Source: Calocera cornea HHB12733 (taxonomy: Eukaryota; Basidiomycota; Dacrymycetes; Dacrymycetales; Dacrymycetaceae). From it: a stretch of DNA of 64,000 nucleotides. A program made the translations under genes and the position numbers. How positions within the stretch are numbered: the stretch's first letter is position 1; the number at the start of each line of letters is the position of its first letter. The stretch lies in the NCBI GenBank assembly GCA_001632435.1, contig KV424066.1:2198-66197 (forward strand). Direction: 5' to 3'. The notes under the pieces were generated by a model, which was not told the origin of the DNA, did not search any database, and saw only the letters and a program-made list of their open reading frames with translations. This document shows, in pieces, positions 4,640-29,180 of the stretch.

Positions 4640-4824
4640 GGGCCTTCTTCGTGTTGATACAGTGCCATCTGTTCGGCGAAACCAGGATGCCAGTGATCCA
4701 GTCAGGACGAACAGTGTGATATGAGTCAACAAGCGCGCATGGTTGTTGATGATGGAGGGAGAGTAGGCGACAACAGGTGGCGGAGGGTTCGGAAGGACAT
4801 CTCGTGAGGGTCGCAACGCGTCAC
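4640..4824. repeat. Left flank of the 21 kb element, paralogous to 28.88-29.10 kb
   Basis: This sequence aligns by eye with about 28890-29098. Shared blocks include acaagcgcgcat, gatgatg.agggagagt and gtgagggtcgc..cgcgtcac. The match stops at 4824, where the large element begins. The continuation of the same paralog (29099 onward) reappears at 26050, on the far side of the element. Confidence 0.8.
4819..4824. repeat. Target-site duplication CGTCAC, left copy
   Basis: CGTCAC abuts the left inverted end and is repeated at 26044-26049. The paralogous unoccupied site has a single CGTCAC at 29093-29098. Confidence 0.8.
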
Positions 4825-4858
4825 TATGGTGGTGCATTTGCGACAAAACCCTTGCTCC
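4825..4858. repeat. Left terminal inverted repeat
   Basis: About 34 bp pair with the complement of 26010-26043. The identical core GACAAAACCC is at 4842-4851. Outside the core the differences are largely transitions. Confidence 0.7.
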
Positions 4859-4900
4859 CGCTGCCCAGCGGAGGTATACCCCCCCATACTGCCGGGTACT

Positions 4901-5000
4901 CGCTGGTACTGTCAGTACAGGCCGGTACCCGTCGGTACCCGTCAGTACACGTCGGTACCCGTCAGTACAGGGCGGTACCTGTCAGTACAGGGCCGTATTG
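4901..5000. repeat. Left subterminal 10-bp GTAC array
   Basis: Consecutive 10-bp units of the type GTCAGTACAC / GTCGGTACCC run in strict register from 4911 to 5000, with a looser unit before. Each carries a GTAC palindrome once per helical turn. More GTAC copies without strict register lie at 5061-5102. It lies about 86 bp inside the left tip. Confidence 0.8.
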
Positions 5001-5425
5001 ATTCCGTACTCACTGACACGGGCGCATACCTCCGTCCCTCCCGCCCCCCACGGAACCATACCGACAGGTACCGACCAATACCGCCCCGTACCGTCCGTAC
5101 GGACCCCGCAACATGCCTTCTGCCCGTGCGGGTCTCTGATACCCCTTTTCCTCTACGCATTTTTTCCCGCTTTCCCCACCTCCCTCCCATGTTTATCTTT
5201 TTTTACTCGGCTGCTTGCGGGGTCTTTCATCTCTACCTCCGCCATTCACCATGTAAACATGCTTTTCTCTATCGTCGTCCCCTCATTGGCCCGCCTGTAT
5301 TTTCAGCTCTCTCTAAAAAAGACCCGATCCCACTCCACCTTTTCAAACCTTCTTCTCCCACCCATCCGTCGCCCCATATCAAGGCTGTCTCTCCTGCTGT
5401 TGATTCACCGATTTCCGTGACCGAT

Positions 5426-6902
5426 ATGGCCCCTCGCTGTGGTCTCTGTCACACGGCAACTGGTCTACGCCGTTGTGGTCGTTGCCACACCGCCTATTAT
5501 TGCTCTGTTGAGCACCAAACAGAGGTGCGTGCTCGTCCATATCTTACAACCTATTCTCATTCCCTACTTGCAGATGTGGCTCTTCCATCGACTTGACTGT
5601 ACACTTCCTACCCTCGTTGCTGCCAATCCCACCTCCTTGTTCGTGCCTCATGTGTACCTTCTCTTCCCCTTCCTAACTACTTCTCTAGGTCGCCTGTCAT
5701 CCTTGCTGGTGCTGTTTACACTCAGTTCGGCTCCTTCACCTTCCCTTTCCTTCCTCTTCTACGCTTGGGCGTCGTCCAGGCTCAATTAGCTGCCAATACC
5801 ATCACCCCGGAGAGGCATCCCCGCATCCCCCGCATCCCGGTACCCTTATCTCTGACACCGTACGTAGGGCTACACACCTTACGCGGGACATTCGGCTTGA
5901 ATTAGGCTCCCATTACCCTGCGGTCGACTCCGAGCTGGCGTGCGTACCCCTCTCATCCGCTCTCGTTTCATCTCCTGAACCCTCTCCAGTCTCTTGCAGG
6001 CGACGAGTGAACACATCGCCCTCTTGCTCGACCTTGCTCCTGAACTGCGCACCGCCATTGTTAACAATCACTCCCTCCTCAATTTGTCCAAGCAGGTCAG
6101 CCTACCTCTGTTAGTCTCATTCTTCTGTTCTTACTCCACCGAATCTTCTTAGCTTGACATTGGCCGCGCCTGGGTCCTCCACCGTGACGACACCCTCCTT
6201 CGGCACTATTTACCCACTGCTCTCCACTACTACCGCATACCCTCCCTCCAGTATTCCCCCCCTATCCCGATCCTTCTCTATGATGTCGATTTTCTCATCG
6301 ACTCGTCCGATGCCTTTGCACTTCCCGCCTTCCTCTTCCCTGATGCCAAACGAAGTCGCTCGCTTCCAGCAGATGGTCAGTTTTGTGCCCCCGCCCTCCT
6401 CCACGTCCGTAAGGCCCCTATTCCCATTCAACCGCCTTACTTATGCCCGCCCTTTGTACCCAGCTTTACGTGCAGCTGTTCCGTCACAATGCTTTGCACC
6501 AGTCCGTTTCCCCGACCTTGTCTCGCCTGGGTACCGCGACGTCCGACCATTTTGTAGCTTCTCTCTGTTACCTTGCTGTACGGGTTCGTACCCTTCTGTC
6601 ACTTCGTCAGCCACTCTTATATTCACGACCCTTAGGTCCGTTACGCTCTCGCCAATCCAGCCCAGCGACTTGACGTCGATCCAGCCTCACCGGTTAACCC
6701 CGGTCCCGCAAGCCAGCACCTCCCTTCGGGTACAATTCCTCCTTCTACTACTCTCACGCACGCCCGCTACGCCCCCATGCTGCTATTCGATTATGAAGAC
6801 TTCTACTACACCCTTGTCGCTTGGTTCCTTGACAACTGGACTGATCAAGCTGCTCGCGGTGTCCAGACCTATTGGCAGGCTAATCTCCCAGCCAGGACTT
6901 AG
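5426..6902 (+). CDS. MYND-type zinc-finger protein
   Basis: Eight exons read in phase to a 372-residue protein: 5426-5524, 5574-5653, 5689-5708, 5780-5943, 6000-6095, 6153-6375, 6414-6583, 6636-6902. The 20-nt third exon is the least certain. The N terminus is a MYND finger with C5, C8, C17, C20, C26, H38 and C42 in place. The sixth ligand is a His (H30, in CSVEHQ) instead of the usual Cys. The rest includes segments such as LLLDLAPELRTAIVNN and LYDVDFLIDSSDAFALPAF and matches no family I recognise. MYND fingers usually bind proline-rich partners in transcription control. It is the first gene inside the left end of the 21 kb element, so it may be cargo or a transposition factor. Confidence 0.75.
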
Positions 6903-7338
6903 ACACAACCTCCATACCGAGTTAGATACCACCTCTATACCGTTACCTTCCAATTTCAACTCCTGACCTCTTCCCCCCCCCCCTCTCCTCCGCCCCAATC
7001 CCCATATCACATTTCACGGCAATGATATTTGGTTGTTGGTCCTTCCCTAATCTGCACATACCCTCGAGCGAGTCGTCCCCATTCCCAGGGTCATATCATT
7101 TCACAGTACACTGAAGTACAGGGTAGTCTGTAACTGTTGTGCATCGCGCCATCGTACATCAGAGTATGCATAGATGTAAAAAAAAAAGGAAGATCATGAG
7201 GCTAGTTGGTATGGCCTGGTACGCTCTCTCACAGTATCTCCACTCGAACGAGATATGCAATAGGGGGAAAATGCTTGCTTGGCATCTACGTACGCGATAT
7301 AGATGCAAGCGCCCCCCCCCCCCCTTCCCCGCGGGGGG
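6903..7338. other. Spacer with a homopolymer C tract
   Basis: No gene seen between the MYND gene and the next minus-strand gene. A run of about 14 C followed by ttccccgcgggg lies near 7310-7336, and an A run is at about 7178-7187. Confidence 0.5.
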
Positions 7339-9675
7339 TCAAGCTCGACGATTCTTGATGTGGCGGCCTCGACTGGCTAGGAACGGCAGTACCTTCCTTG
7401 CCCGCATATGCAAGTCTTTCTCGTTGATTGTCGCGGCAGTACGCTCCCCTACGGTCGTGCCGTGGCCTTTGGGTAAAGGCCAAGGACGCGTCGGATCAAC
7501 GAAATACTTCAGGATTTCGGGCAAATCCGGGTCATCTTCGCAACCAATGTCCTCGGTCTCGGTGACGATGTCGTCAAAGAGTTTCACCAGTGTTCGCTTG
7601 TTCTTGAAGGTATTATACGGGTACCCCATCCAATCCAGGACCTGGTTGGCGATGACCGGAACCCCATTAATCAATACAGAACCCTCGGCGTAGGCACCGT
7701 CGTCAATCACATGAAGATGATGCAAGACCGCTTTCACGGCATGCCAGCGCCGGAATTTCGCAATCGCCGGAGACCGATCATGCGTCTGTCGTTGGGCCAG
7801 CGGTACCAGCTCCTCAGAACCGGGCATGTCTCGAAGGCGATCGAGCAGCAGGGCTTCTATGGTGGCGTTCACACTGGGTCCACCCAGTACCGGACTTGGA
7901 GTCCCAGTCCCCGGCATTGATCCGCCTGCCGTAGAAGAGTGTAGGACTATCGCGTTCATCGACCCATTGTCAATCGCGCGCGGAGCGGGAGTAACGGCAT
8001 AGATGTGTGCTCCATTGGGGTTGGTCCCAGACGAGTGAGGGTCCGGGGATCAAACGGCGGGGTGGTCGTCCACGATCGACGAGTACCCTTGAGGATCTCG
8101 CGAGCCCTGGACTCCTCGTGCTGCAACCCTCAGTTCGGTGGCGAGCTCAATCGTCCCTTCTTGTCCGGCACCATCAGGGCTCAGAACTGAGGGCCGATCG
8201 AGCGGAGACTGGTCGTGCGGTTGCGCTACGGAAGCAGGTACAGACGCAGACAATAGCGGCACATCCTCCTCGGCCGCTGAAGATGCGGAAGTCCACATGT
8301 TGACGGACCCAGCGGCCCCCGTTGCCTCCTGTCCCACAGGCACAGGGTCACCACACAGTAAAGGGTTTTCCTGAAGGTGTAAAGATCAGTATACACTTGT
8401 ATGACAGCGTGCGCGTCGGCCACTCCGACACTCAAGAACATAGGTGCGCACCTTCAGCAGTTCAAAACACAACACGAACAGGAATTCGTCCAGTTGCACC
8501 ATACGCAGGTGTTCCAGCACGAATCTTCGGGTAATGGTGCTCGTCACCAGTACCGAGCTGATGCCCCTGGCCGTGACTATCTGGTGCTGAATGGCATCGC
8601 GGGCGCTCGACAACCACCATCCACCATGCAGTCGATTGTCAACTTCATGGATGGGCGCCGGGACTCGCGACAGCCAAAGCTCGTGACACACTTTGTATGT
8701 TGCCCAACCACGCCGCGGGGTAACGTTCCGCAAGACAATGTCCATGACCACATCTACTCTGGTCCGCATCACGCCGTCATCTATGCGATATACTGTTTCG
8801 TCCAGCCGGGCGTGCCGGATCAGGTACTTCTCCGTGGGCCCAGTACCGAACCCAGTCATGAGCACCAGTATGCTGCAGCGACCTGGATAGTCGCCCGGCG
8901 CAGCATCCATTGCGTTCTTGATGACGAGATCGGAAGTCGGACCACGTTCGTCCGGAGTACTCCCAGAGTTAGGCTGGGACTGCGCCGTATCTGTCCCTAG
9001 CCCAGACCAGGTCGAAAGCATGGCAGCAGCTCCCTCCCAACCTCCGTCTGTACGCTCATCCCTAGTTGGGTCGAAGGTCGAGTCCTGCGAGTCCAGCACA
9101 TCTTCTGGGAAATAGTTTGTCGGACTCTGAATGGGGCCGTATAGGTCGGATGGCCCGTACTGAAAGCCCTTCAATGTCTATCACCTGCGAGGGTGAACTG
9201 CGACACTCACCGGCCTCGAGGGTTCCTCTCCGTCAGGTCCTGATGCACCCACCCCGGCGTCACCCTCTGCAAGCACCACTTCGCTTGAAGCGGCAGAACT
9301 TCGCGGTGGTGTGAGCGGCGTCTGCGATGAATACCGAGGCGATCGGCTTCGCGGCGGCTCGTTGGTGCCCCTCCCGGTGTCCTCACCCGTAAGATCTGAG
9401 TCGGTCCGTAACTCTTCTACCGACTGTCCCAATGCTTCTTCACCCTCTGCTATGATGGGTTCCGTACGGACCGCCGCACGGCTGGACGTCTTTGTACATG
9501 TTAGCGTTTGTGTAGTACGGCCAAACGTAGATTTGACGCGCACCCCCCGACGTGCCGACCCTCTGGCCAACCCTCTGGCCGACCTCTTCTGCGGTTCTGT
9601 CCGAGCCCGCTTTCTGGGCTTTGATGTCGCATCAGGCAGCAGCAAGGCTTTACGAGGGCGAAGCTCCGGTACCAT
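7339..9675 (-). pseudogene. Unknown 734-codon protein with one in-frame stop
   Basis: Exons 9675-9211, 9159-8452 and 8370-7339 join in phase, with introns of 51 and 81 bp. One TGA (8052-8050) interrupts the third exon in the same frame as coding sequence on both sides. The first 155 residues are basic and disordered (KPRKRARTEPQKRS). The middle is folded-looking (SILVLMTGFGTGPTEKYLI, LHGGWWLSSARDAIQHQIV). The last part contains HAVKAVLHHLHVIDDGAYAEG and PVIANQVLDWMGYPYN. I recognise no family. It starts about 220 bp from the integrase gene and is transcribed away from it, so the two may share a promoter. The stop could be a recent CGA-to-TGA change, or the 3' part could be a separate gene starting at the ATG at 7959. 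Confidence 0.55.
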
Positions 9676-9893
9676 GAGCACGATACTGGCAGTCAATGCT
9701 AGAAAGGACGTTTGAGTCGTTCGGAAGGATGATGCTGGCAGGGCCAGGGGACGCGGAGGCACCCAGCTAGGGCCAGAGTGGCGGTAACAATCGGATCCCT
9801 GAGCTTCTGGCCCGGTACTGCCAGTATGGTCCCGTACCTGCCGGTACCGCGTCCCCAACATCTTGTTGGCTGCCTATCTCTCTCTCTCTATTT

Positions 9894-11753
9894 ATGTCTA
9901 TACCGGAAGCGGTTACCCAGCAGACACTACTTCAATGGCGTGCTGCATTTATTCAAATAAGAGATCATTTCGAACGAGGCATACGGGGACACCAAGGAGA
10001 CGGTCCATATTGGCGGCGAGTTCAAGCGGAAGGGCAGCGCCTGCTCGACATACTTGGTCAGGTCGGTGTTGCCCCCTTCAATTCTATCCAGCTTTCACTG
10101 ACCTGAACAGATCTGGAGCTTACTGGGCGATGATGAAGGCTATGATGCCGAAGCTCTTCTCACAGCAATTCTCGAGCATGCAGAAAGCATTCCCGCTCAG
10201 GACGATCCCACGGTCGAGGGTACAGGACAGCCCATGACATCGACCTCTGATCCAGCTACCGGAGGACGACCCAAATTCATCATTAGTAGAGACTTTTTGG
10301 TTACCGCATTCCAAGTAGTCCCGCGCAAAACGGATATTGCGAGATTTCTGGGCATCTCTGCCCGGACTCTACAGAGACGGATGGTCGAATATGGCATGCG
10401 ACCTCCTGGGCCACCGGTATACGTGGAGCGACGAAACGACCGAGGCGAGGTGGTAGTGGAGCATTCTGCAAACCGCTCTAGGTGCCCATGGAGTGATGAA
10501 ACGTTGGATGTGTCCATCCAATGGGCCTTGGAGCGGTTTCCTCAGTTGGGTCGAAAGATGTTGCAAGGATACTTCGATGCGCAGGGTATTTATGTGCCAG
10601 AGTGGAGGTTGGAATTGGCCCTCCGCAGGATGGCTCCGCATCGTCAATTCGGTGAACGTATCCCGTTGGAGCGCAGGGAGTACCATGTTGCAGGTCCTAA
10701 TGCTCTGTGGCATGTGGATGCTCAGCTGGGTAAGCCGTACCTCCGTGCTGCAAGACGGCGACTGAAGTGTATTTACCGTGTAACAGGTCTTGTGCGGTAT
10801 GGCCTGGTATTCCATGGATTTATAGACGGGGATTCACGTCTGTGTGTTGCCCTTCAAGTCGCCACAAACAATACGAAAGAAAAGGCTTTTGAAGCATTCC
10901 GCATCGCATGCATGCGGTACGGAACGCCTTCCCGTGTCCGGGGTGACCATGGATTGGAAAATCTGGACATTGCCACTTGGATGAACTACCACAGAGGGGT
11001 CAATCGAGGCTCGTTTCTATGGGGCCGGTGAGCCGCTCCGACCGTGAATGGGTATGTAACCGTACTGATGATAACACGGCCAGATCGGTCCATAACGTCC
11101 GCATCGAGCGAATGTGGGTGGATGTAACCAAGGACTTCGGCGGGAAGTGGAAAAAGATCTTTATCCATCTCGAAACTTGGTACAATCTTGACATTCAGCT
11201 GAACTCCCATATCTGGCTCCTACATCATCTTTTCTTGGAAGATCTCCGAGCCGACGCGGAAATGTGGCGCAGCACCTGGAATGCTCACCGAATGCGGACG
11301 CCAGATGGCCCAATGCGGTCGCCAAACCAAATGTGGTATCTCGGTATGCTGATTCAGGGTTACCGAGGCATCCAAGACGAGGGCTTGTGGACACGATCTC
11401 CTGACGACGGCGGAGGGCATATGTACGGCGTGGATTGGCGAGCATTGCAAGACGATGCGTTGATGCAACACCACACTGGCTCGCACCCGACTGGCTTCAC
11501 TGAGTTCCGAGTGGACCACCCCAGTTGCCCGCTGGATCCAGAGGAGATCGTACAGCTGGACGCTGAAGTATCGCCATATATGCACGGTAATAACCGCTAT
11601 GGATTATTACCGTCGCTGGGCGATGGGGTTGAGGGCGATGCTGCGCGTCGAATACGAAAGAGATGTGGGGTACGAGACTCAGATATAAGCGAGACTTGGG
11701 TAGTAGTCTCCAGTAGTCATGGGTATCCATTTATATTGGTCGTAGGCGAGTAA
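9894..11753 (+). CDS. DDE integrase-type transposase
   Basis: Three exons (9894-10061, 10111-11027, 11084-11753) join in phase into 584 residues. An N-terminal helical part is followed by a helix-turn-helix-like segment (RKTDIARFLGISARTLQRRM) and an integrase core: WHVDAQ (D259), GLVFHGFIDGDSRL, a second acid in RGDHGLEN (D335) and RSVHNVRIERMW (E370). Exactly 34 residues lie between the second D and the E, the usual integrase spacing. The motif set resembles the putative integrase core families of fungi and animals (Pfam rva_4/rve type). All three acidic residues are present, so it may be active. It lies inside the 21 kb block and is the natural candidate for moving it. The last about 50 residues after HGNNR are uncertain, because a GT donor there could end the exon earlier. 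Confidence 0.8.
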
Positions 11754-12752
11754 TGTTATCCATGTGATTACTGGACCGCGACCGGGGACAGGATACCCGT
11801 CGCGTACTCGTACCAGTCGCGTACTCGTACCAGTGCGCGCCGCATCCGGGTCATACCCAGAAGCGCGGGATCCAGAGAGATCCAGCCAACATTTGCAAGC
11901 ACGTACGCTCTCGTCCAGAACGCTAGCCATAGGCGCTTGGTCGACCATGTTTGCTTGGGTAGTACGACCCATGCTGCGCGCGTTGGAGCTGTACGCCGCA
12001 CCCGCGGAACCGTCCACCACAGCGGTATGCTGCCCTATTCTTCGCCAAGGACTGCAACGGCAAGGTCGGCCTACCCGCACGCACGCAGAAAGACTACGAC
12101 TCGTTCCGGAGAAGGCCCAGATGCCCGTACAATACGGTACGCCCTCCTGCAGTCGCTCGGGGCAGGGGAGGGGCGAGGACGCATCCGCGTGCAACGAAGA
12201 GCGTTGAGGGGGGCGCGTGCATATGCGTATGCATTCCTTCTGGCCGCACATGGGAGCATGCTACCCACCCTCTGCGATCTTGGCCGTAACACCCGTACGC
12301 CCGATTCGTAGGAGGGTCGCCGATCCAGTGTGCACTCGCCAGTGTCCCCATCGAACAGGCGCGGTATGGGCGGGTATGCACAAGAAGGCGAAGGCGGAGT
12401 AGTGTTCGCCGCCGATCGTCGTGCCGTTGGTCTACCACGGTGGACACACTGCGAAATTACATCCATACAAACAAAGTCGACCAGGAGCGGAGGGTACAGG
12501 AATGTCGTGTAGTGAATGTATGCTACGTACTATACAGTGGGACACGTGACCCGAGACAGAGTGTTCGTGCTGCCGATGGAGTCAGTAGGTACTCTGCAGA
12601 ACCGAGATAAGAGGGCGCACATAGAAGCCAACCAGTATACCGGTGTGTACGAGCTAGTACTGAGGGGTTGATCAGCCTATGATCAACGCAGTTACACAGT
12701 AACAACGCACCTGTCAGTCATCCCGCACGAGAGCCCAGCTATCCTCACGGTC
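11754..12752. other. Non-coding or unresolved stretch inside the element
   Basis: Several frames are open only because the DNA is GC-rich, and none shows a start, splice sites and a recognisable protein. A 20-bp tandem with CGTACTCGTACCAGT lies at about 11800-11845 and belongs to the GTAC motif family. Confidence 0.4.
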
Positions 12753-13480
12753 TCAACATCCTCCTCCCCCCACCAGCTGCACGATGGACGTGACGCAGGC
12801 AAGCAGTGCCGTGCAGCACGAGCAAGTCGATCCCATCGTCTGAGAGTTGCCGGCTGCGGTGGGCGGAGTGTTCCAATTCTGAGGAGGGTAGGTCGGGTTG
12901 ATCGTCATGGCGGGAGCCGGCGCGTATTGATAGCCGTATGGGTTGGGGACGACTGGGCCGTTGGACAGGGCAGTCCATTCCCAGACGGGCACGAGTGGGA
13001 CGGTGGCGTAGGCGAGAGGAGGTGGCATGAGCGTAGCGATCGGGTATGGGTGGGCGGGGGCGTAGGCGGCCATCTGAGGTTTTGGTGGTGGTGAGCGAGC
13101 CGGTACGGACACTGCGGTACGAGTGTGGATGAGGTCGTGACGAGGCCGAGCAGCGAGGTATGGAGGGCGTAATGTCGGACGGGCGGGGGACAACTTGGGG
13201 ACCGGCTGAGTGGCGGTGGGGGCAGACCCTTGGCCGCGTTGAAGGGCATGGGCGTGACCGTGCCGTGGGTGGCGTAACGGTACCCAACGTGCCCGGCGAC
13301 CCCATCACCGACAGGTTGACCCGGCATACGAATGAGTACCGGTCTGCGATTCGTGTGGACCGCTTGATCATTCGTGTGTGCTGGGAGGGGATGGATGGCT
13401 CCGGCCGTGATACTAGGCCCCAACGAGGCATCCATCGGTAGTAGGCGGTTATGGAACGAGGGGACCGTCGGGGGAAGCAT
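12753..13480 (-). CDS. Proline-rich low-complexity protein with Cys-rich tail
   Basis: Two exons, 13480-13259 and 13205-12753, joined by a 53-bp intron, give 224 residues. All frames are open here, so the model rests on the ATG, phase and composition. The protein is rich in Pro, Ala and Tyr (PLAYATVPLVPVWEW, NPYGYQYAPAPAM) and ends GSTCSCCTALLACVTSIVQL followed by glycines, a short hydrophobic Cys-rich tail that might be membrane-embedded or lipidated. No family was recognised. It lies in the middle of the 21 kb element. Confidence 0.35.
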
Positions 13481-14173
13481 GCCGGGCGGGGTCGAGGTGA
13501 GGATAGGAGGGGGGGCAGTTGACAGTTAATGTAAAGCATATAACACGCAGTCATGGCAATGAACGGATAGAGTTAGGCTGGTTAAGTGGACCAGAACCAC
13601 AAGATGCGGTCCACAGTGTGGACCGATGTCGAGGGGGAGGGAACGGGTGATGAGGGTAGGGTTGAGTAGGAGGGAGTGAGAAAGAGGGGTGAAGGGAAAG
13701 AGGGGCGCAAGCGGTATATATCACAAAGGTGGCAGGCACGTGGTCATATGTTACGCATTTTGCCGCCGCGACGGCAGTATTCTGATTGGCCAACCTCTGC
13801 TCACAGCCACGAATGACGGTTTGGAGCTCGAAGGGTTAGCGGTTAAGTCTCTATCATCTCCTCCGCAAGTTTAAAACCCCTGTCACCCTTTTGTGTATCT
13901 ATGCTCTATCCAGATGACCACGTCCATGGGCAGGGGGGTTCACCAATGGCGGATAGTAGTGGGTGCATTAGCCCGTACGGAGGGGTACAGCGGTACCAAT
14001 GGAAGCCGCGGGAAGAACCAATGGCAGGCAGTGCAGTGGTGCGTAAACAACGCGGACGGGAAAGTATCAGAAGATGACCGAGGGCCAGGTTACGCATCCC
14101 GGCTCATAAGACTGAGGGGACCCGCGAGCCCTCCCTCTTCCGCCCAACGACAACGATCCCCATCCCCGTTGAT
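13481..14173. other. Intergenic stretch inside the element
   Basis: About 690 bp between the divergent proline-rich gene and the first DUF6532-like gene. It is a possible shared promoter. I see no other feature. Confidence 0.3.
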
Positions 14174-16215
14174 ATGACCGGGGGCACAGAAAAGAGTGAA
14201 GATCAATTGCAAGCAGCAACGATCGCTGCGACTGCCACACAGACCAATCCCCCCACCCAGTCCAACACGAACGACGCCAATCTCACCGCCCAGTCCACGA
14301 ACAAGGACGATCAATCGACGAAGGCCACTCAGAAAGGTAACGTGGGGAACGCATGAATCCCTCATCACGGCTCAAAGTCATTGTCAGGACCGGTTGTTAA
14401 GGATCAAGACAGGATGACGAGGTTGTTCTCAGCGTTCAAACAGACAGATCAGAAGGCACATAAAGGAACGAAGGTGAGCAGCAGGGACGCGTCTGTACGC
14501 GCGGGCATATGCAACTAACCTCCCCTCTCAGGATACTACGGACGACGGGGAATCTGATGGATTGAGCAAGGCTGTGAAGCGTCAAGGTCCATTGGTAAGC
14601 ACCTTGACGTGCCTATATGCGTTGGTATACGCACTTACCAGCATCTGATAGACAAGCGATGTTGGCTATGACTCCGATGACGCCGACAGTCCGGAGCCTG
14701 TGAAAGGACTGCGTACTAAGGTAAGTCAATATATGCGCTGTATCCCCGTATATATGCGACTAATCCCGTATGCAGAAGCGGATACTGTCTGAGTCTGACG
14801 AGGAGATCGAGGTGACGACCAAAAAGAGGCGAACTGAGACCACGAAGAGACAGCCTGCGCATGTACGTGTTTCAAGCATGGGGTCTTTGGGGAGGCGTCT
14901 GACGTTCTGCAACAGGGCGAGGGACTGAGGCCCGCCGGGTTGGCAATGCTTGAGGATGGGTCGTACGTGATGGTATACGACCGTACGCTACCCGCCGTCC
15001 CTATCCCTCCCATCGTCAAAAGTGAGCCTGTCGAGATCGAGATTTTGTCGAGCGGTGGAGAGGAGGCGGATGTGTTCTCGATCCCCAAGAAAACGGCACC
15101 GGCTGCCACGCCTCGTCCTAAAGCATCCTCTAGTTCAACATCGAAGACCACCGCTCCGGGTACGAGACAGACGGTCAGTACAACCAAGGACGCCCTGCCG
15201 GTGGTTACTGCGACTTCGACTGCATTGGGAGGGCGCCACACCAAGAAAGACCGCAGCGAGCCAGATGTCAGCCGTCTGGAGCAGTCCATTCTTCGTCTAG
15301 CCATTCCGTTCTGGAAGCTCCACCAGGGTACACTCCAATTGTTTCCACCGCACTCTGAAGCGGTGGAATGGGCGGAGACGGCAATGAATGCCGCTGTGGA
15401 GCAGCTTGTGAAGAGGGGAGGGACCGACGCGGCAAAGAACATCAAGAGGCTGCAAGAGAAGCGTGAGCAAGAGATTCTGAAAGAGGTAAGTAAAATGGTG
15501 CACACCCAACGGTGCCGTTGGGCTTACGGAGAATGTTCAGATCCGTAGCCATTCGGATGAACTGCTCGCCAATATCATCGACGCGGCGAAAGCCAAAGTA
15601 CCCGTATATATGCAACATCTTTTCGAAGGCAAGGCAACGACTGTGGCTTGGCGTGTTCGACGTCTGCTTCATGATCTCAACTTTATCTACGATGGCTACG
15701 ATTGGGAGGATGACCAAAGGAAGATACCGAAAGCAGCCTTCTTGAGTCCGATCATGGTTGCAGTTATGGGTGTCATATGGAAACGCCCGATGCAATTGTG
15801 CGGTGAGACGGAGGGGGCCATGTTCGACAAAATGCCTTTACATATGATCGCAGTGACGTGTTTGGGGGTGAGCAGGGCCCAACTTTATCTGTGCGTACCG
15901 AGAGATACTGACTTAATCCTGGGTAGATATGGATCTACCTGAAGAGCTGGTGGACCGGTGTCCCGACAGACGTTTCCGAAGTACTGGACGAGATCGACAT
16001 TCCCAAAGTATACGAGCGCATCGTCGACCACATCCTGAAGTATGAGAACGATACACCTGACGCGTGCGAGGCGATGCAGCGCGAGCTGACGCGCCGTGTC
16101 CGGTAAGAACTGAGACCATGCTGTAGGATGTTGTACTAACTAATGCGCGGATTCCAGTAGCCATGGGGAAGTCGTGGCGACTGCTTCCAGATCGACCTTC
16201 CTTCAGCTAGAATGA
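14174..16215 (+). CDS. DUF6532-like protein 1
   Basis: Nine exons read in phase to 532 residues: 14174-14336, 14388-14473, 14532-14594, 14652-14720, 14776-14862, 14916-15485, 15541-15867, 15927-16102, 16158-16215. The first about 150 residues are Ser/Thr/Gln-rich and charged, with a basic run (TTKKRRTETTKRQ) that looks like a nuclear signal. The C-terminal half is helical: HLFEGKATTVAWRVRRLLHD, IPKAAFLSPIMVAVMGVIW, MPLHMIAVTCLGIWIYLKSW. The layout is like the fungal DUF6532 domain, a family common in Agaricomycetes with no known function; I assign it by memory. It converges on the second DUF6532-like gene within the same large element. Confidence 0.65.
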
Positions 16216-17030
16216 AGGTGACTATGCTATGAATCAATCAACGGGACCTTAAGAGCGAACGATCTGGGATGGACGGCAGTAGCGGACTGATTCTGAAATA
16301 CTAGGAGGGTCTGGAAAGGGCAAAGAGAGGATGGCTGTATCAGGCGGAAGAAATACGGTGTCGCAGAGGATAGTACGTTTCATGTACCAAGACAACCGTC
16401 GCCTTAGGCACTGTGGCCCTAATGACTCCAAAAATGGCATTGATCGGGAGGGACTGTAAAGAGAGAGCGTTGGATGTGCCACGATTGCAAGAGGGCGTTT
16501 GGGACTCGTACAGACTAGTACGGTATGGTACCAGACTGGCAATTTGCCTGCCTGGCAAGTTTGTCCCTGCCGCTGACCCTGTACGGGACGGTACGGTACA
16601 GTACGGTACAGTACGGTACGGTGAACCGTCAAGACGAGTGAGGAGGAGGAACAGCGGGTGTACTCAGAGAAAATTGTATTAAGGACGATCAACTCTAGTG
16701 TGTAGTACCAGTAGTGCTAAGGATGTCAGTATGGGTGAAGCTAGATGATACGTAGTGAAAGGTGAAAGGGGATCGGGTTGAAGCCGAACTGGCTCGGCTC
16801 CAACCTCGCTTGAATGATTGATGGGTTGAGATAGACAGGTAACAGATTGGATGCACGAGTACTGGCGGTCAATGATCCCGCCGTACAACAATACGTTACG
16901 TAGAGATTGAGGACGCCGCCTGCGAAACCACCCCGAGACGCAGCAGCCACAATGACGGACGGTCAGGGTTGGAGCTACCATGTTTCCTGCTGAAAAGTCC
17001 ATTGGGATGAGCAGGACGGTGACATAAGGC
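16216..17030. repeat. Spacer between convergent genes with GTAC-rich tract
   Basis: No gene. The strip 16580-16622 is a dense run of GGTACGGTACAGTAC-type copies, another member of the motif found at the element ends. Confidence 0.6.
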
Positions 17031-18813
17031 TTAAGTCGAGTCATCTTCATTGTCTTCATCGTCGGACATGTGCAGGAAGAGGAGGTGGCCCTCGTCTTCC
17101 TCTCGACGCTCTGAAATGGCGGCCGCTTGCTGGGCTTCTTGTTCCTGATGGGTTTTACTGGTCAAAGTACTGGCCATCAGCAGCGTGGTCATGAGACAAA
17201 CCGGGGAAACGTACACAGCCACGGCAAGCAGGTGAGCAAGGAGCTCCTTGTACTCCTCTGTATACTTGCGCTTCAACCAATCCAGATTCCATGCCAGAGA
17301 GGCGTAGGACGGCCGGTACACGCTGGTGCTGAACTCGCTGGGTTCAAAGCGGCCGGTCTCGTACTGCTTGAGAGCAAACAGCAGCTGCGAGGTAAGAAAT
17401 GCACCATTAGACAATCACTTCGAACAATCCATAGGAACAGGTACATACTGAGACAGCCGCGGCAGCGATGACGCCGTCAGGCTCGCGCGACGGCAGAAAC
17501 AGTTCTGGGAAGACAAACCCGTCCCCTTCTTTACCCGATGCAAACCACGCTCGCACGATCACCTCTCTGATTGCAGGGTGTTGGAAGGGCAACCGGCGTT
17601 TCACCTTGCCAGAGGATGGATGGATGAAGACGTCAGCGTAGATGTAGGTATTCTCGTCCAGGAGGCGAGCGACTTCGTGTTGCCTTTGTATCGGCGTCAT
17701 ATTCAAAGCGAATAGCTCCGGGTAGCACTGTTTAACGACATTTTGGGCCACAGTCTTGATGATGGTGCGGAACCAGGGACCGTAGTGAGCAATCTGTGAA
17801 ATAGTCCCGGAGTTAGGGGTGGATGCATGCGGTTACCAGCGGATACGGGAACTTACCAGGGGTTGCGCCAAAGTCAAGTTAGTCCCTTGCAGAGTCCCGT
17901 TGATGGCCCGGAGATCTCCACGCTCGATCCTCTTTTCCCACCGAGCATGAGCCGAACGGTTCGCCAGAAGTACAGCAGTCGTCATAAAATCAGCCTTCAC
18001 GTTGTCCGCAGCATAGAGATCGATGGTAGCAAATTGGAGCCGGTAGAGGATTTTCGCTTCCTGGATAGTGTCCCGAAGTTCTTCACAGAAGTCCTTTAGC
18101 TTCAGGCTGCCGCTTTTGGGTAGGGTGGGCACCGGTGGATTGTGGATGGACAGTATATGGTTCTGAGGGTCGACCTCGAGTGCATTCTGTACCTCCACGG
18201 AAGTGCTTGTACGGGCTCTCTTCGTAGCCTTCTACAAGGCACATTGTCAGATGGAGGCTCGTACGGAGCGACATGACGCACGCGTACCTCCGTCTTGACG
18301 CGACTGTCTTCTTTAGGGGCGCGTTTCTTAGAATACGTTTTCAGGCGGCGAGTACGGGTACTAGAGCCCTGCTCGGGACGTGAGTATATGCGCATTGGTG
18401 AAGCGGGCACGGGAAATGTACCTGATACTGAACTTGGCTGTCATCGTCATCCCCTTCTTCGTTGTCCTCCGGGACAAAGTCGTCGTGTGCATTCACTGGT
18501 ACTCGCTTGGAAGGCTTTTTGGGTGGAGCAGGTTTGGAAAGAAGGGGGGGCGAGACTGTCGTCGCAGTGCTTGTCGTCGCCGTTGCGATCGTCGCCGTTG
18601 CTGTCGTCGCCGCGGGTGTCGGCGCCGCGGGTGTCGGCGCCGCGGGTGTCGTTGCTGCGGGTGTCGTCCCCGCGGGTGTCGTCGCCGCGGCTGTCTTGCG
18701 TGCAAACCAACCGCGCGGGCCAGAGGAAGCTGCCCGTATTGTTAGCAAGTACAGAACGGGACGGCTTGGTACGTACTGCGAGGAGGGTTGGGCTGTATGC
18801 TGGAAACAGTCAT
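17031..18813 (-). CDS. DUF6532-like protein 2
   Basis: Six exons (18813-18777, 18729-18422, 18368-18288, 18231-17857, 17793-17449, 17384-17031) join in phase to 499 residues. The start at 18813 is the nearest in-frame ATG. The N-terminal part is a repeat-rich Thr/Pro/Ala stretch coded by a 15-bp minisatellite, then an acidic patch and a basic stretch (RTRRLKTYSKKRAPKE). The C-terminal domain matches my memory of DUF6532: RLQFATIDLYAADNVKADFM, LPFQHPAIREVIVRAWF, FPELFLPSREPDGVIAAA and LLFALKQYETGRF. It ends in an acidic tail. Function is unknown; nuclear location is inferred from composition only. It is a diverged counterpart of DUF6532-like protein 1, tail to tail with it. Confidence 0.7.
18604..18693. 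repeat. 15-bp minisatellite in coding sequence
   Basis: About six 15-bp units of the type GTCGGCGCCGCGGGT lie within exon 2 of DUF6532-like protein 2. Because 15 is a multiple of 3, they keep frame and code a Thr-Pro-Ala-Ala repeat. Confidence 0.8.
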
Positions 18814-20023
18814 ACTGGGAGCGGCATGAGTGCCGGTACTGGTGGTGGGAGCTGGTCTCGCTTGAACATGGGCAAGGGCTGGGGGAAGTACGGGGCCGAT
18901 TGTGATGGAGTGACTGAGAAACGAGATGTTATTTGCGGGTTCCCCAAACCGCAAGGCGCCATCTGGTGTAGGCTGTTAAGAGAGCACCGGGGGTCAGGTC
19001 TGTACGTCCTGGGATCAATGGAACCGCGGGCGTACTTCGGACAGGACCGGGTAGAAGGCCCGGAATGTGGTTAGAGAGCCCTGCGGAGCATGGGACGCGA
19101 CCATGGTGAGGGGATGAGTGGGATTGGACACCGTTTCCGTGCGACGCGACCGATGTGTTCGAGCTGCTGGATAGAGAGGCGACGAGGATAGAGAAAATGC
19201 AAGGCGGACGCGCTGTCAATCCACGGCGACGTGCGGAGGGGAGCAGATGGCAGCGAGTGGATGAGCAGAAGTGGAGTGAAGCTCAACAGAGGTGGATGTA
19301 TGCAGAGGGCGAGGTGGGAGGGGGAGTGGTCGATACTGACGCGTACTGGAGGTCTGGGATGGTATGGGGCACCCGGAGTTAGAGCGGACTGGCCTGGTTC
19401 CGCTCGCGGAAGCAGGATTGGCGGCCGCACACGGAAGCGAATGGCGTCCGTATGAATGAATGGCCCCACGGTGTCTGGGGTACTGGTCACGTTTTGGGGA
19501 GCCTACCCGTGCTGTTGGACGGGGTGAGACAACCCAGTCTAAGTCTACGGAAACGGCGAATAAGCTACGATCCGACGTACCCGAATTGGACAGTAACCCG
19601 TACAACGCCGGCCAGAGACTTCAGGAGGATGAACGTGCCCAAGATGCTGTTTGGATGCCTTTTGCGAGGCGTGGGCTTGTTGATGCGGGGTCCGTAACGC
19701 CGCTGGAGGAGAGCGCGTTCACCCGTATTCTGATGTTGGTTGCGATAATGATACGGGTGAAAACTGTATACAAGTGGGAGAAGGTGCTCGTCCTGAGGCC
19801 GTCTAGAAACCCACGCATATATAACCGGCGTGGAGAAGGGGGAACAGACTGAGACTGAGCCCCTGCTTCTCTGTCCCTGTTTCTTTCCAGACGGCATAGT
19901 GGACCGGTAGTCCAGCTAGTGTAGCCTCTCGATAATGCCGCAAGCCCTCCGTAAAGGTAGTCGACTAGTCAACAAGGGGATACCATGCTGTATGCTGACG
20001 GCCTTCACGTATCAGTTTCGCGG
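18814..20023. other. Long spacer inside the element
   Basis: Open frames on both strands reflect composition and lack start/splice support. I see no supported gene between the DUF6532-like gene 2 start and the small plus-strand gene at 20024. Confidence 0.3.
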
Positions 20024-20742
20024 ATGAGCACGGGTGGCAAGCGTCCTACCAGACGCTCCTCGCTCCATACCCTGGAGCGATCAGCAGTAGACTCAGTACG
20101 TACTAGCTGTATACAGTGGGCAGGACAACTCTCTCATGGGTTGTCAGAACGGGCGGGTCAGTGGAGAGGAACCTGCGGGCGAGGCTGAATCGGGGAGATG
20201 CGGTGAAAGAGCGGAAGCCGCGCTAGTGCAGGGAAACCCTGGTACGTGGCGACTAGAGTTCTAACCGCTATCTGGACCACTGCTAAGCTTTGAATAGCTG
20301 ATTCCGACGACGGTTCCGGATCTGAGATGGAAAGATGGGTGCTTTACAACGAGCCGCGTCACTCCATGCTCGCTGTGGATTCAGTGGAAGATGAGCAGCA
20401 AGAGCACAAGGCATTCGACGGAGGGGTCGATCCTGTAGCGAGCGATACGCGAGAGAGACAAATAGAGGCAATGGCGTTCTGCTTCATGACTAGTGCCCGC
20501 TTCTTGAAACACAAGTATCGTGGTACCCGTAACGGTCAGATTGCGAGAGGGCTGTGGGAGACCTTGTCGCTGAGGGTGAATGACCAAATTGAAGCTCGCT
20601 CTGACGGGAACGCTGACGATGTTTGGATGTTTGGCAGTACGCCCCGAATAAACCGATCAAGACTTGGAAGTCTCTGTTCAAGAAGTACGAAAGCTCCGTG
20701 CGGGGACGGGCCAAGGACTTGGTGAGGAACCAACAGGGTTAG
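20024..20742 (+). CDS. Small protein with possible Rap1/Myb-like fold
   Basis: Exons 20024-20095, 20148-20241 and from 20298 join in phase (52- and 56-bp introns). After a basic start (MSTGGKRPTRRSSLHTL) and an acidic linker comes a helical region, MAFCFMTSARFLKHKYRGTR, then ARGLWETLSLRV. The expected continuation YAPNKPIKTWKSLFKKYESS, ending at 20742, is in another frame; the shift falls near 20630. Read straight, the protein ends at 20725 (197 residues). The pattern of helix, W, then TWKSLFKKY resembles fungal Rap1/Myb-type domains only loosely. It is either a gene with an unrecognised short intron or a frameshifted copy. It lies within the 21 kb element. Confidence 0.4.
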
Positions 20743-21532
20743 TCAGTGACTCCAAGAGAGCTTCGGATTCAAGGCATGGGTTACCCGTACCCGTCCGCAT
20801 GCGTACCGTACCGTAGGCCATCGGGTATTGCCAAATCAAATGGGTTCGAATGCGGTCCATGTCACTCTGTAACAGTACAATGTACAGAATTACATCTCAT
20901 AAAATCTAGTAGGGAACCGTACTCTGGCACACACACAGTGTCCATTGCATCTGGTATTAGGAAGGAGAATACATAACGTGCCACCAGCTACCGGGATTCA
21001 AGTCTCCATAAGACACAGTTTATAGTATGGAATATCGGTCCTGAGAGAGAGTCAAGCGGTACCGTTGATAATATAGGCATTAAATGGGAAAGAAAAATCT
21101 GGACTGAACAAGAGACAAATGTCAGCAGAACAAGACTGCACTGTCTCAATAGGTCCTTAAGTGAACCGACGGTTGTGTGTGTCTGTGTGGGTGTTGGGGG
21201 GAGAACAGCAGGGAATAGGCATGATGTGCATCGTGACCTGCCTTATCCGGAAGGGTCAGTTGGACAAGAGAAGACCGAGAGTACGCATGGGTACGACGTG
21301 GTATATAGTACGGGTGTGGTGGGGGTGGGGTGATATGTGTATTCCTGAGCAGGTTCGGCTCATTGCAGGGAAGACACGGAGAGTTTGTGTGGGATGCCGG
21401 GGCACTATTCGCAATTCTGAGAAGTGAGAAGAGCCACATCACATGAGAGAGGGAGGGCAGTTTCAATTATGATTATGCGTAGTGAAATGAGAGCTACACT
21501 CGAATTGAGACTGATAATGGAAGTGGGAGTAG
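20743..21532. other. Spacer with GTAC motifs
   Basis: GTAC copies cluster at 20780-20815 and occur again near 21285-21310. No gene recognised. Confidence 0.4.
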
Positions 21533-24500
21533 TTATACCATATTCATGGATAGCGTCTCACCAATACGGCCGTCACCGATGATCTGAATGAAGAGCATAG
21601 CATCGAAATCCGCAGTCCACTGAGGGCTATCTTGATAGTACCATGAGGAGGTGCCGTGCTCCAGAGGAATAAATACTTGTTTCGTACATGCATGGAACTT
21701 GCAGTGAGACAGACCGATGTCCAGTTGCATCTGGGAGTACGTGAGCCATGCGGCCCCAGTGAGAGTGAAGATAGAAGACCAGCACATACATACAGAGAGG
21801 GGGAGTTCGGAAGAAGATAAGGGACGCCTGTTGCAACACGATAGAAGGTTACCGCTCGGTACAGATGGTGTTCAGTGGCCTGGTCCGAAAACGAAGGTGG
21901 AGGGATCCAGTCCCCCGCCGAACGCAAGGCGGATGCGCGAGCAGGAATACCGGTATCTTGCAGGAAGTGAGAGAAAGCGCGATGAAGGGCGAGCTGTTTG
22001 GAGAGGGGCAGGACCTCATCGGGAACGTCAAGCCAACGGACTAGGTTGATAACATCGTCGGGAACGCGGATGCGACGATCGGGCCACATGCAACGAATGA
22101 ATGAGAGAGGATTAACCCCACCCTGGGATAAGAACTAAAGTGGATTCCAGACCCAGTTTCTGAACGAGATGGGGGGGACGCACATGATCCCGCAGAGTAT
22201 GAGGCGCAAAGGGCGCATTGACGCCGGCGGCAAAGGCGTCCAAGGCATGGGTGTCGTGTCGCTCGCCAATGAAGAGAACTCGATGTAATATAGAGGACAG
22301 CCAGGCACGGTGCAAAGCGGCAGTACGAGGCTCATCCAGATCGCCATCCTGAACAATGGACACATAGGGCCGCGGTAAGAAGAAGAAGGGAAAAAGTGGG
22401 AGAAGTCAAAAACCCTAACCTCGACATGTCCAGCACCATACACGATGGAAGCGAGGAGATGTTCCGGATGGCCGGGTTCCTGAGGCACGGGGATAGTCAG
22501 TAAGGACGTCCATGCTGGAGACAGGCGCAGGTAACGCGGGGTAACGCAGAGTAACATACCATACTCTGATACATAGGCTTAAGGCGTCCGGTAGGACCCA
22601 TACGATGGAAAAGGTCAACAAAGTGGGCGATTTCAGGGGCAAAGCATCGCAGCGCGCGTAGAGTGATAGTTTCTTCTCCACCGATCGCGACCAGTACAGT
22701 AAGCGGGGAAAATGAGGCCGGTCCAAATTGAAATAACTTCATAAAGACGACCATAAGCAACCCAAGAGCGGCGAACTCGACCTTGACGTCGTCAGACAGT
22801 GAACGAGCTTCCGGGGGGGCACTGGGACCAAGCGACTTGTTGCGTAGTGAGCTGTATTCCCCGAAGGAGAGGGGCTCGAGTAGCGTATCAAAGGTTTCAA
22901 AAGTAGCTTGGCATATCTCCAGTGTGGCGCCAGTACCAATCCCGCGGCCGCTATATTGTGGGACGGTGAATAATGTCCCATAGAAGGCAAGGAATGGGAG
23001 ACTTACGCCATGATGGGAAAATGGAGTTCCGACATCAAAACAGGGATGGAGCGCGGGATGTCGGGGATGAGACCCAGGACAGGTTTAACTGCATCAAGGA
23101 GATAATAGCGTAAAGCTTGAGCGGCTTCCTGGAGGTTGCCAGAAGGTGGGTAATAGTCCAGATCAAGGGGAGATGGTACCGGATTGACCGTGGCGACGCT
23201 GATTTTCCAATTGGATAAGATATCGACATCGGACATGGTCGTTGTGTTATTGAATACAGGAGCGGGGTCAGCCAATATGACGTGGTTGGAAGAGAGTACA
23301 GGGTGTGTGGCAGGGGGAGGAGATAGCATGCTGCTTTGGGGGTGGGTATGAGGCAATACGGTGTCCAAGGTGACAGGTGTGGCCGTCGGAGCGTGGGATG
23401 AGTAGGCTGGAAGGGGTGAGGTAGAGGGCGGTGGTGAGGGGGAGCGGAGAGGGACGTCAACGTGGGGTGTGAGAGCAAGGGATGGGACCGTCAAGGGAGT
23501 GTGGTGAGTAGAGGGCGGAAAGGGCGGGCACTGCAACGCAACGTTGAGGCTACGAGCGGGGAGGGCGGTGGCTCCCATAGGATGAGAGTGGGGGTAAGGA
23601 TCGGAAAGGAGAGGTGCGGTTGGGGGTGGCCGGGGGGAGGGAAGGGGGTGGGGCGGGGGTCTGGTAATGACGGCTGAAGGTGGGTAGGGCAGGGTAAGAA
23701 TGCTTGAAGGTGGGTAGGGCGCGGTAATAACGCTTGAAGGTGGGTGGGGTGTGGTAATGAGGACTGGAGGCGGGTAGGACACAGGGACCGTTGGGGAATG
23801 AAGGGGATGTGCATACGAACGTGATTGGGGTGGAGGGGGAGGTGGTGGGGGAGAGGGGCCAACAGCCCTGGCGTTGCTGTCGTACGAGTCCCCGACGTGG
23901 GAGGATGGTGGCAGGGGGACATCCGGAAAACGGGCTGGTAACCATCGGGAAGAGTTGAGGACAGGAGGAGACCTCGAGCGGAGAGCAAGATCAGCGGTGT
24001 CTCGAAGCTGCTGTAGATTGACGGGCTTCTGGAAGACAGACTAAGCGGGTAAAAACGGTAAGGAGTAGTGACGGACCTTGGGGGCGTGGAGACTGCATGC
24101 GGTAGTATCACTTTTGAAATATTCCATGAATGGCCAAGGATCAGGATGAAAGTACTCTGACACGTGTTCGCGACTAGTGATGGGTCCGTAGGCAGGGGCT
24201 AGAAGGGGAGACGGGTGAGGAAAATGAGGCGAGGAGGGGAAGAGTCGGCGAACCAAATTCAATCACCAAGGGCCATCCCGTGGCCTTGCGACGGCCACGA
24301 ACGTATTTCGAAAGTGACTTGAGGAGGGACCCAACCGTGATTTGGTCAAGTCCGGTTGCTGGCACCATTTGGGTACGGTCGGATAAGAGGGGGACGAGGG
24401 GAACCAGAAGAGGATAGGGAACACCATTGGAAGAAGGGGATGGGGACGGAGGGATAGTAAGATGCCGGAAAATGGTCACGAGGTTGGGGACAAGCTGAGA

Positions 24501-25678
24501 TAAGGTGGTATGGTCGGGTAATGTGAGGCAGGACAAGAGCCCGACTGCATTGCTCCTAAGGTAGAGTTAGATGGGCAGTACGGAGAGGCGTAAGAGAATT
24601 ATATATAGCGTACGCCTCAATAAATGGAATGAAAGCAGTTATGTAGCGCTTGTGTATGACGGGGTTGCCCTGGATAGAGAGGATGAGCAAGGCAACTGAA
24701 AGGGATGATGAAGAGACGGTACGCACTGGAAAAGTGTGGGAATATGCAGGTGAGACGCGGAGCAAGGCAATAAAGTCCGAAGAAGGGGGAGAAACCTGGG
24801 GTAGGATACGTCGGGACCGGACAGGCCGGTGTCGCAAATGATTTTCTTCTGCGGTGGGAGCAGTGTGGCGTTGCATGCTGCGGCTGCGCGAGGAGAGCGT
24901 GAACGTACGAGCTTGAGATTGAGAGAGCGTGGGTGCGGAAGCCACGGCGGACTCAACGCAATGAGGTTGAAGGGCCGGGGGGGGAGGAAGCGAATTACTT
25001 TCGGAATGAGAGGCGAGTATGCGACAAACGGCGTCTTGGGCGGTATTCAGACCGGATCCGGTAGGTGCCATAATACTGAGGAGATTCTGAGCGAGTTGAG
25101 GGTCGTGCGGGGTGCGAGGAGGGAGGCTGTTGGCAAAAGCTGAGGTGAGACTTGGGGGGTTGAGTCGGCCAACGTTGGACGGGTCGTTGGGTAGAGGTTG
25201 GGACGGCAGGTGATTGAGAAGTGGATGGGTGCAAGAAAGGCAAGGAAGGAGTACGATACTTGGGTCCATGGGTGGATAGACACCATCGGAGAGGTGAAAT
25301 CCGGGGTGGTCATGAGGAAGAACAAAGCAGGTGCAGACGCAATGCGAGTGGGTAGGGAGAGGTTGAGAGGGTAGGGCAACGCATGGATGAACGAAGTGTC
25401 GCACGGTACTGTGGACAGGGCGGGTCGACATACGGAGCAGTATGGGGTGGGGAGCGGTAGAGGTAATTGACAGCGTATAGGTTAGGTCGAATAAGAAGAA
25501 AGTGATAGACAGCAGAAGGGACTAGGACAGCTGCGGAGTGAGGTGGATGCAGGCTGAGCGACTCGGACAGAGGAGAGACGGGATAAGAGAGAGGCGTGGA
25601 ATCCGGTTGGGAGGTAAGGCGTCCGGATCTCACGAAACGTGTAAGCATATGGTAGGACCAGGCCGTAAATGGATCCAT
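21533..25678 (-). CDS. Large proline-rich protein with HECT-like C-terminal region
   Basis: A multi-exon minus-strand gene runs from an ATG at 25678 (MDPFTAWSYHM) to a stop at 21533. I did not resolve all junctions. The N-terminal half is Pro/Ser-rich and disordered, including tandem PYPPSSVITRP-like repeats at about 23.6-23.8 kb. From about 23.2 kb a folded region begins (NWKISVATVNPVP, RGIGTGATLEICQATFETF, FGPASFSPLTVLVAIGGEE, LVRWLDVPDEVLPLSKQLAL). It closes with a segment containing SHCKFHACTKQVFIPLEH, which has the position and look of the Cys-containing loop of a HECT C lobe. The inference is a HECT-like ubiquitin ligase, but similarity is weak and by eye. It is the last gene before the right end of the 21 kb element and could be cargo. 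Confidence 0.45.
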
Positions 25679-25825
25679 GATAAGAGTACTGCAGACCCCA
25701 TAAACAGGTGAAGGCAGTCGCGGAGGGGTAAGCTGAAAAGGAGAAAACAAGGCGAAAATAAATAGTGGATACCGTGGGTATGGGATAGTACGGGGTCCCG
25801 CGTAGGGTCTATTGTGGGGCTGGGA

Positions 25826-26004
25826 CGGTACGTGTAGGTACAGGGCGGTACGGGTGGGTACAGGTACGGGTGCAGATGGATACGGAAGCATCCCCAACGT
25901 TACTGCCCTGTACTGTGGGTACCGGGCCGATACTGACGCGTACTGTCAGTACAGGGCAGTACACGTCAGTACACGTCAGTACACGTCAGTACGGGACAGT
26001 ATAG
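25826..26004. repeat. Right subterminal GTAC arrays
   Basis: Six strict 10-bp units (GTCAGTACAC type) fill 25945-26004, ending 39 bp from the right tip. A looser GTAC cluster is at 25826-25870. The unit has the same top-strand orientation as the left array. Confidence 0.8.
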
Positions 26005-26009
26005 CTTCC

Positions 26010-26043
26010 GTGGTAGGGGTTTTGTCCGATTTACGCTGCGTTA
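26010..26043. repeat. Right terminal inverted repeat
   Basis: Its complement aligns with 4825-4858. The 10-mer core occupies 26017-26026, 17 bp from the tip. Confidence 0.7.
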
Positions 26044-26049
26044 CGTCAC
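26044..26049. repeat. Target-site duplication CGTCAC, right copy
   Basis: Exact repeat of 4819-4824. The following sequence (gtctg.aggtaaacaacgacca) continues the paralog at 29099 onward. Confidence 0.8.
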
Positions 26050-28879: not shown

Positions 28880-29180
28880 TTGTGCAGGTTATTCGTATAT
28901 TTGCCGCATCGATACAGCGCCATCTAACCGGCGAAACCGAGATTCCGGCTATCCGGTCGGTACGACTAGTACGACGTGAGGCGACAAGCGCGCATAGCTT
29001 CTGATGATGAAGGGAGAGTCATAGACGACGACAGAAGATAGCGGACCGCGGCGTCGAAGGATGTTTCGGCCAAAGCCGTGAGGGTCGCGCCGCGTCACAG
29101 TCTGCTGGTAAACAACGACCAAGTATAGGTCACTGGTCTGGGTAGTTATCGCTCGCCGCCTGCAGCTCGCTCAGTCCATT
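28880..29180. repeat. Paralogous empty insertion site of the 21 kb element
   Basis: The left half (to 29098) matches 4640-4824 and the right half (from 29099) matches 26050-26130. At the junction is a single CGTCAC (29093-29098). The element occupies exactly this point in the other paralog. Confidence 0.8.

Follow-up and report, generated by a model that had tools for sequence, protein, structure and literature searches.

An IS3EU-like DNA transposon of unusual size and gene content in the basidiomycete Calocera cornea

Comparison with described transposons

Elements of the IS3EU/GingerRoot group have TA..TA termini, usually lie between 6-bp target duplications, and encode a DDE transposase that is without an HHCC motif and has its first D 100-300 residues in (PMC10045372). 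Positions 4825-26043 of the stretch of DNA analyzed here, from the dacrymycete Calocera cornea HHB12733 (64 kb, referred to as the window) are a complete DNA transposon of 21,219 bp, which resembles these elements in its TA..TA termini, in its 6-bp duplications (six of six contiguous copies and two split ones), and in an integrase without an HHCC motif (first D at residue 260 in the model from copy C92). It differs in belonging to a set of elements that measure 21-24 kb and conserve about eight genes besides the transposase, whereas a large accessory gene set is not mentioned in the excerpted text of that account. Most probably it represents a lineage of IS3EU-like DNA transposons grown into a multi-gene element with a stable accessory set. 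An earlier note on this DNA, made from the letters alone, had proposed a 21.2-kb basidiomycete transposon with terminal inverted repeats and its own DDE integrase at this position, with an IS3EU-like class assignment; the ends, the CGTCAC duplication, and a match to PF24764 agree with the former, and the published termini and duplication length (PMC10045372) fit the latter.

TET-carrying IS3EU elements of rust fungi and Tuber contain TET/JBP and alpha-kinase genes, and the ends of the rust elements read TAYGG..CCRTA; within the excerpt of that report, the rust elements demonstrate that accessory genes can be part of IS3EU elements in fungi (PMC12730594). They share with the C. cornea element a fungal host, 6-bp duplications, a transposase accompanied by accessory genes, and a conserved gene order, but the C. 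cornea right ends begin with TAAC. Because the published IS3EU features are found here and rust IS3EU elements hold accessory genes, the C. cornea element is called IS3EU-like, of unusual size and gene content. No Pfam match to TET/JBP or alpha-kinase was found in the modeled genes.

The captain of Starships is a tyrosine recombinase, DUF3435. Starships, eight of which are reported in the basidiomycete Tremella fuciformis (PMC13066641), are likewise large multi-gene fungal transposons with a mobility gene aboard, but they combine a tyrosine recombinase captain with variable cargo, in contrast to the DDE integrase and nearly fixed gene set of the C. cornea element. The modeled genes have no Pfam match to DUF3435, and the mobility gene belongs to PF24764. 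Polinton/Maverick elements are about 20 kb long and encode an integrase, DNA polymerase B, a packaging ATPase, a protease, and a capsid. A virus-derived, integrated element of this kind would have in common with the C. cornea element its size, inverted repeats, rve-type integrase, and 6-bp target duplications (the last reported in PMC10045372), and several of the element's proteins are without recognized relatives. However, its TA termini and PF24764 integrase differ from those of Polintons, and neither polymerase B nor packaging ATPase, protease, or capsid was found in Pfam scans of the modeled genes or in Protein Data Bank (PDB) profile searches of genes B, H, and I (lettered as in Table 1), making such an origin very improbable. 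Kyakuja-Dileera-Zisupton (KDZ) elements have a KDZ transposase and 7-8 bp duplications (PMC12730594); no KDZ domain is among the Pfam matches of the modeled genes, and the duplications here are 6 bp, not 7-8. No description of the C. cornea element was found among the titles and abstracts listed, all from open-licence papers, which does not prove it unpublished.

Ends, target sites, and copies in the genome

Both tips of the window copy read TA, and TA..TA termini are found in all six contiguous copies and at the partial ends described below. The inverted repeats at the tips are imperfect and extend over only about 26 bp; in the window copy, the first 26 bases of the left and right ends are 62% identical, a value matched by 2 of 20,000 random interior pairs, and in the five other contiguous copies the identity is 69-77%, matched in each by 0 of 20,000 such pairs. 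The identical 10-mer that had been noticed 17 bp inside each tip, GACAAAACCC, is present at 4842-4851 and, inverted, at 26017-26026, with no further occurrence in the window. Over the 26 terminal bases of eight left and eight right ends, mean identity is 0.79 between left ends, 0.87 between right ends, and 0.72 between left and right; the ends are conserved, with distinct left and right versions. Subterminal arrays had also been claimed, and the motif counts bear this out: GTAC-type motifs number 22 and 19 per 300 bp at the two ends of the window copy, whereas 190 interior windows average 4.6 and none exceeds 15, and in six of six contiguous copies the arrays at both ends are denser than every sampled interior window.

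The proposed empty site near 29.1 kb also withstands alignment. The joined flanks of the element align with 28865-29121 through the junction, where CGTCAC occurs once; identity is 72% across the 149 nt of the main flank block and 90-91% in the two blocks adjoining the junction. This empty site is paralogous, not orthologous. Several local repeats (families D2, D5, and D7) occur in the neighborhood of the element, which may be why a paralogous empty site lies so near to it. A 245-nt local repeat has three copies that flank the element on both sides (window 623-867, 4027-4271, and 30725-30969), and a frame over the third has a weak protein kinase match, below the cut-off.

The earlier note had advised a search of the genome for further copies of the ends. 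In 32.1 Mb, in which the window belongs to contig C153 (76,235 bp) and only the best candidates were scored, searches with the left and right ends gave four contiguous copies besides that in the window, and protein searches gave a sixth, C104. The six are 20.9-23.8 kb long and each lies between perfect 6-bp duplications, every one different. Six partial copies (C29, C26, C196, C239, C27:1-2968, and C278) run into contig ends. ATAAGG is both the left flank of C29 and the right flank of C278, and CAGGAG is both the left flank of C26 and the right flank of C196; since two such matches in eight possible left-right pairings greatly exceed the approximately 0.002 expected with equal base frequencies, C29/C278 and C26/C196 are probably two further copies split by assembly gaps. 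Copies with ends of the same type thus occupy different sites, each between 6-bp target duplications. The right ends of C27:1-2968 and C239 are 99.97% identical over 2,968 bp, and that of C278 is 99.7-99.8% identical to both over about 603 bp (excluding 119 bp at the inner end of the C278 stretch, which failed to align). The first 30 flanking bases of all three differ, placing them at three different sites, and such near-identity at different sites therefore indicates recent movement. A further locus, C94, carries genes I, H, B, C, and A; it was examined over 10 kb (including 1,315 N) and is left out of the count of complete copies. Only 18 bp from a large copy, C29:226972-227529 holds a small element of 558 bp whose 26-bp inverted ends are identical and of the element type; it has the duplication CACTGG and is probably non-autonomous.

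Gene content and its conservation

Nine genes, the integrase (gene C) and eight others, were modeled in the window copy; it should be noted that the models are computational, that several keep or miss an intron, and that the final round confined each gene to its strand. The window-copy integrase retains D, D, and E. Among seven integrase models, the second D and the E motif are present in all and the first D motif in six; the exception is the C32 model, which goes wrong at the first D motif, yet the DNA there matches the query. In the 543-residue C92 model, which supplies the position of the first D given above, the second D and the E are 34 residues apart. Pfam scans gave PF24764 and a weak rve match, with no match to Integrase_H2C2 (E 0.1), and the best PDB match was no better than E 0.64. 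The seven element integrases form one clade with support of 1.0 and a long stem against 91 homologues, these being the proteins that passed a length filter among 120 listed; the C28 integrase and the other integrases of the genome are left out of this tree. The homologues listed (120 of 193) carry PF24764 and come from sources including fungi and animals, and none is named IS3EU. Further PF24764-family integrases occur in pairs with equal or nearly equal scores (C34:215014-216384/C94:124369-125739, C105/C141, and C16/C292), which suggests further recently duplicated elements.

Genes A, B, C, E, F, H, and I are present in six of six contiguous copies, gene D in five, and gene G in four, and an extra HNH_2 gene is present in two. 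The gene order in the window copy and C27 is A+ B- C+ D- E+ F- G+ H- I-, whereas in C32 it is A+ E- D+ C- B+ F- G+ H- I-, with the B-E block inverted; in C179 and C92, C- B+ F- follows A and the D/E pair comes after F, mutually inverted between the two. Whatever the order, B and C are divergent (head-to-head), 517-782 bp apart by the models, in seven of seven copies with models of both genes, C94 included. Inverted and shuffled blocks might be taken to mean that a small IS3EU-like transposon and an older segmental block, two separate events, were joined by chance repeats, but this is already contradicted by eight copies with matched 6-bp duplications at tips of the same type, six of them contiguous, and is extremely improbable. 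Median ratios of nonsynonymous to synonymous substitution (dN/dS) at conserved columns are lowest for the integrase (0.058), followed by B and H (both 0.10), F (0.11), A (0.14), the HNH gene (0.15, from a single pair), I (0.17), D (0.18), G (0.21), and E (0.29); they come from pairs with finite dS alone (5 of 21 integrase pairs and 3 of 21 pairs of F, for instance) and, given these few pairs and the choice of columns, are therefore read as selection for protein function and not as precise values.

The earlier estimate of about eight cargo genes holds as a count, but the notion of cargo is not supported, as the genes recur in nearly every copy. Genome searches, which covered A, B, H, and I as whole proteins and DUF6532 and scored only the best candidates, found no close relative of A, B, H, or I outside such elements. 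The matches of A, B, and I are the element copies and C94, except for two weak matches: a fragment of A at C127 (37% identity), which has a broken integrase some 2 kb away, and a match of B at C28. At C28:147657-158626, distant relatives of B, the integrase, and H lie within 11 kb, with best matches of 30-32, 38-45, and 28-30% identity, respectively; ends of the element type were looked for at this locus and none was found. Fragments of H at C16/C292 stand beside integrase exons. The possibility that the transposon acquired its other genes from the host as unrelated passengers, in the manner of the true cargo of Starships or Pack-type elements, finds its best candidate in the HNH gene, which has more distant relatives at C36, C14, and C12. 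In addition, the genome contains 88 exon-level matches to DUF6532, of which many lie outside the element copies, and genes E and F could therefore come from, or be founders of, a wider DUF6532 family. Such a passenger origin is improbable, in view of the lack of close outside relatives of A, B, H, and I and of a nearly constant gene set in six of six contiguous copies; this holds even for C104, although its integrase and that of C92 share only 49-56% identity. On the same two grounds, recurrence and the lack of close outside relatives, the eight accessory genes look like the element's own long-standing set. Some of the 88 DUF6532 matches lie near other PF24764-family integrases (C12 and C24), and DUF6532 may often ride on elements with such integrases.

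Pfam matches support the earlier identification of MYND (gene A) and DUF6532-like (genes E and F) proteins but not that of a HECT-like one: HECT was absent from gene H in five of five members scanned up to E 10, the sole matches being a weak DUF543 (two of five members, best 0.033) and DUF630 (one of five, 0.1). A PDB profile search with H gave four CFA/I fimbrial sequences alone (best E 3.5e-6), with no stretch passing alone, and these were judged to be chance matches, as were those of gene I to hemoglobin (best 0.12). Gene I has no Pfam match; given an open proline-rich frame between them, I and H may be one gene. Gene B gave only single-member Pfam matches of E 0.036 or worse and nothing in the PDB profile search. 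In a protein database search that needed shared words and suitable length, H had no homologues, a negative of weak value because the genome's own proteins were also missed, and B, within the same limits, had three, all from C. cornea. A search of viral contigs gave two pattern matches, neither confirmed.

The positions of these features and of the other contiguous copies are collected in Table 1. Immediately upstream of gene F is a 15-bp tandem repeat of 9.3 copies (window 18557-18695). Elsewhere in the window, a 1,537-residue open frame on the minus strand (51733-56346) encodes protease, reverse transcriptase, RNase H, integrase, and chromodomain and is a Ty3/Gypsy chromovirus-type retrotransposon.

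Table 1. Features of the window copy and contiguous copies elsewhere in the genome
Feature	Position	Strand	Size or duplication	Basis or remark
Left target-site duplication	4819..4824		CGTCAC	sequence read
Right target-site duplication	26044..26049		CGTCAC	perfect 6-bp match to left
Left terminal inverted repeat	4825..4850	+	26 bp	TA at start, GACAAAACC at end
Right terminal inverted repeat	26018..26043	-	26 bp	TA at end
Left subterminal GTAC-rich array	4911..4997		10-bp period	TRF and motif count; candidate transposase binding sites
Right subterminal GTAC-rich arrays	25826..26001		10-bp period	TRF and motif count; putative function as for left
Gene A: MYND zinc finger	5426..6902	+		own model, Pfam; weak C-terminal DUF6698, below Pfam cut-off in window copy
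Gene B: no assigned family	7339..9499	-		head-to-head with integrase; N-terminal part annotated CALCODRAFT_512062; 5' exons uncertain
Gene C: DDE integrase/transposase	9674..11669	+		PF24764 rva_4, E 6.4e-53
Gene D: small proline-rich protein, Cys-rich C terminus	12753..13327	-		gene model
Gene E: DUF6532	14770..16106	+		PF20149, E 7e-22; start 14770 or 14946
Gene F: DUF6532	17031..18395	-		PF20149, E 2.3e-33
Gene G: small protein	19985..20742	+		least certain gene model
Gene H: no assigned family	21533..23236	-		in six of six contiguous copies
Gene I: Cys-rich N terminus, no assigned family	24041..25431	-		gene model
Paralogous empty site	28865..29121	+		single CGTCAC at 29093-29098
Contiguous copy	C179:30877-54660		23,784 bp; CTCGGG	
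Contiguous copy	C92:90291-113344		23,054 bp; CTGGGG	
Contiguous copy	C27:63327-84188		20,862 bp; GACTGG	
Contiguous copy	C32:97518-119019		21,502 bp; GTTGTG	
Contiguous copy	C104:85253-106267		21,015 bp; CATGCC	

Possible roles of the accessory genes

In the transposition proposed here, the PF24764 integrase would bind the subterminal GTAC arrays and the 26-bp ends bearing ACAAAACC, cut at the terminal TA, and join the ends to the target with a 6-bp stagger, and host repair of this stagger would give rise to the target duplication. Gene B is the likeliest transposition partner because it is always divergently paired with the integrase; it would probably be co-regulated and might assist by binding the target or the ends. 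The products of the MYND and DUF6532 genes and of H and I would be element-encoded accessories kept by selection, probably serving the survival of the element (host interaction, escape from silencing, or support of transposition) rather than benefiting the host.

Several points weigh against the interpretation as an expanded IS3EU-like lineage. The class assignment is based on published features and not on a tree with Repbase IS3EU proteins, and the roles of B, H, I, E, and F are putative; the AlphaFold model of gene B is unusable (mean pLDDT 31.4). The dN/dS values come from columns picked for being conserved, a choice that lowers dN, and in many pairs dS is near or past saturation. Distant relatives of gene H occur at C16/C292, C28, and C136/C245, and at C136/C245 its fragments (27-28% identity) have no integrase among the integrase-search matches listed. 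There is also an apparent net frameshift within the last approximately 25 residues of the window-copy integrase, so that this copy may have lost activity, unless the frameshift reflects an assembly error at the integrase C terminus.

A broader reading, which is advanced tentatively and is rather unlikely, is that this is a distinct kind of eukaryotic mobile element whose nine genes form a self-contained genome; its life cycle would require all of B, H, I, A, and the DUF6532 pair, and DUF6532 would be at root a mobile-element family. It would be typified by the divergent B-integrase pair and H, which also occur together at the distant C28 locus, and the needs of the life cycle, if it is correct, would be transposition of a unit of more than 20 kb, escape from silencing, or transfer between hyphae.

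DDE transposons usually carry one or two genes. As an expanded IS3EU-like lineage, one that has kept about nine genes through deep divergence, block inversions, and recent jumps, the C. cornea elements would provide a natural test of accessory-gene roles in large DNA transposons. DUF6532 is among the extra domains in two Ganoderma species, one of which is also significantly richer in IS3EU than others, according to the excerpted report (PMC8955403), and this co-report is a lead; the presence of DUF6532, a domain of unassigned function, inside a mobile element would make its role approachable.

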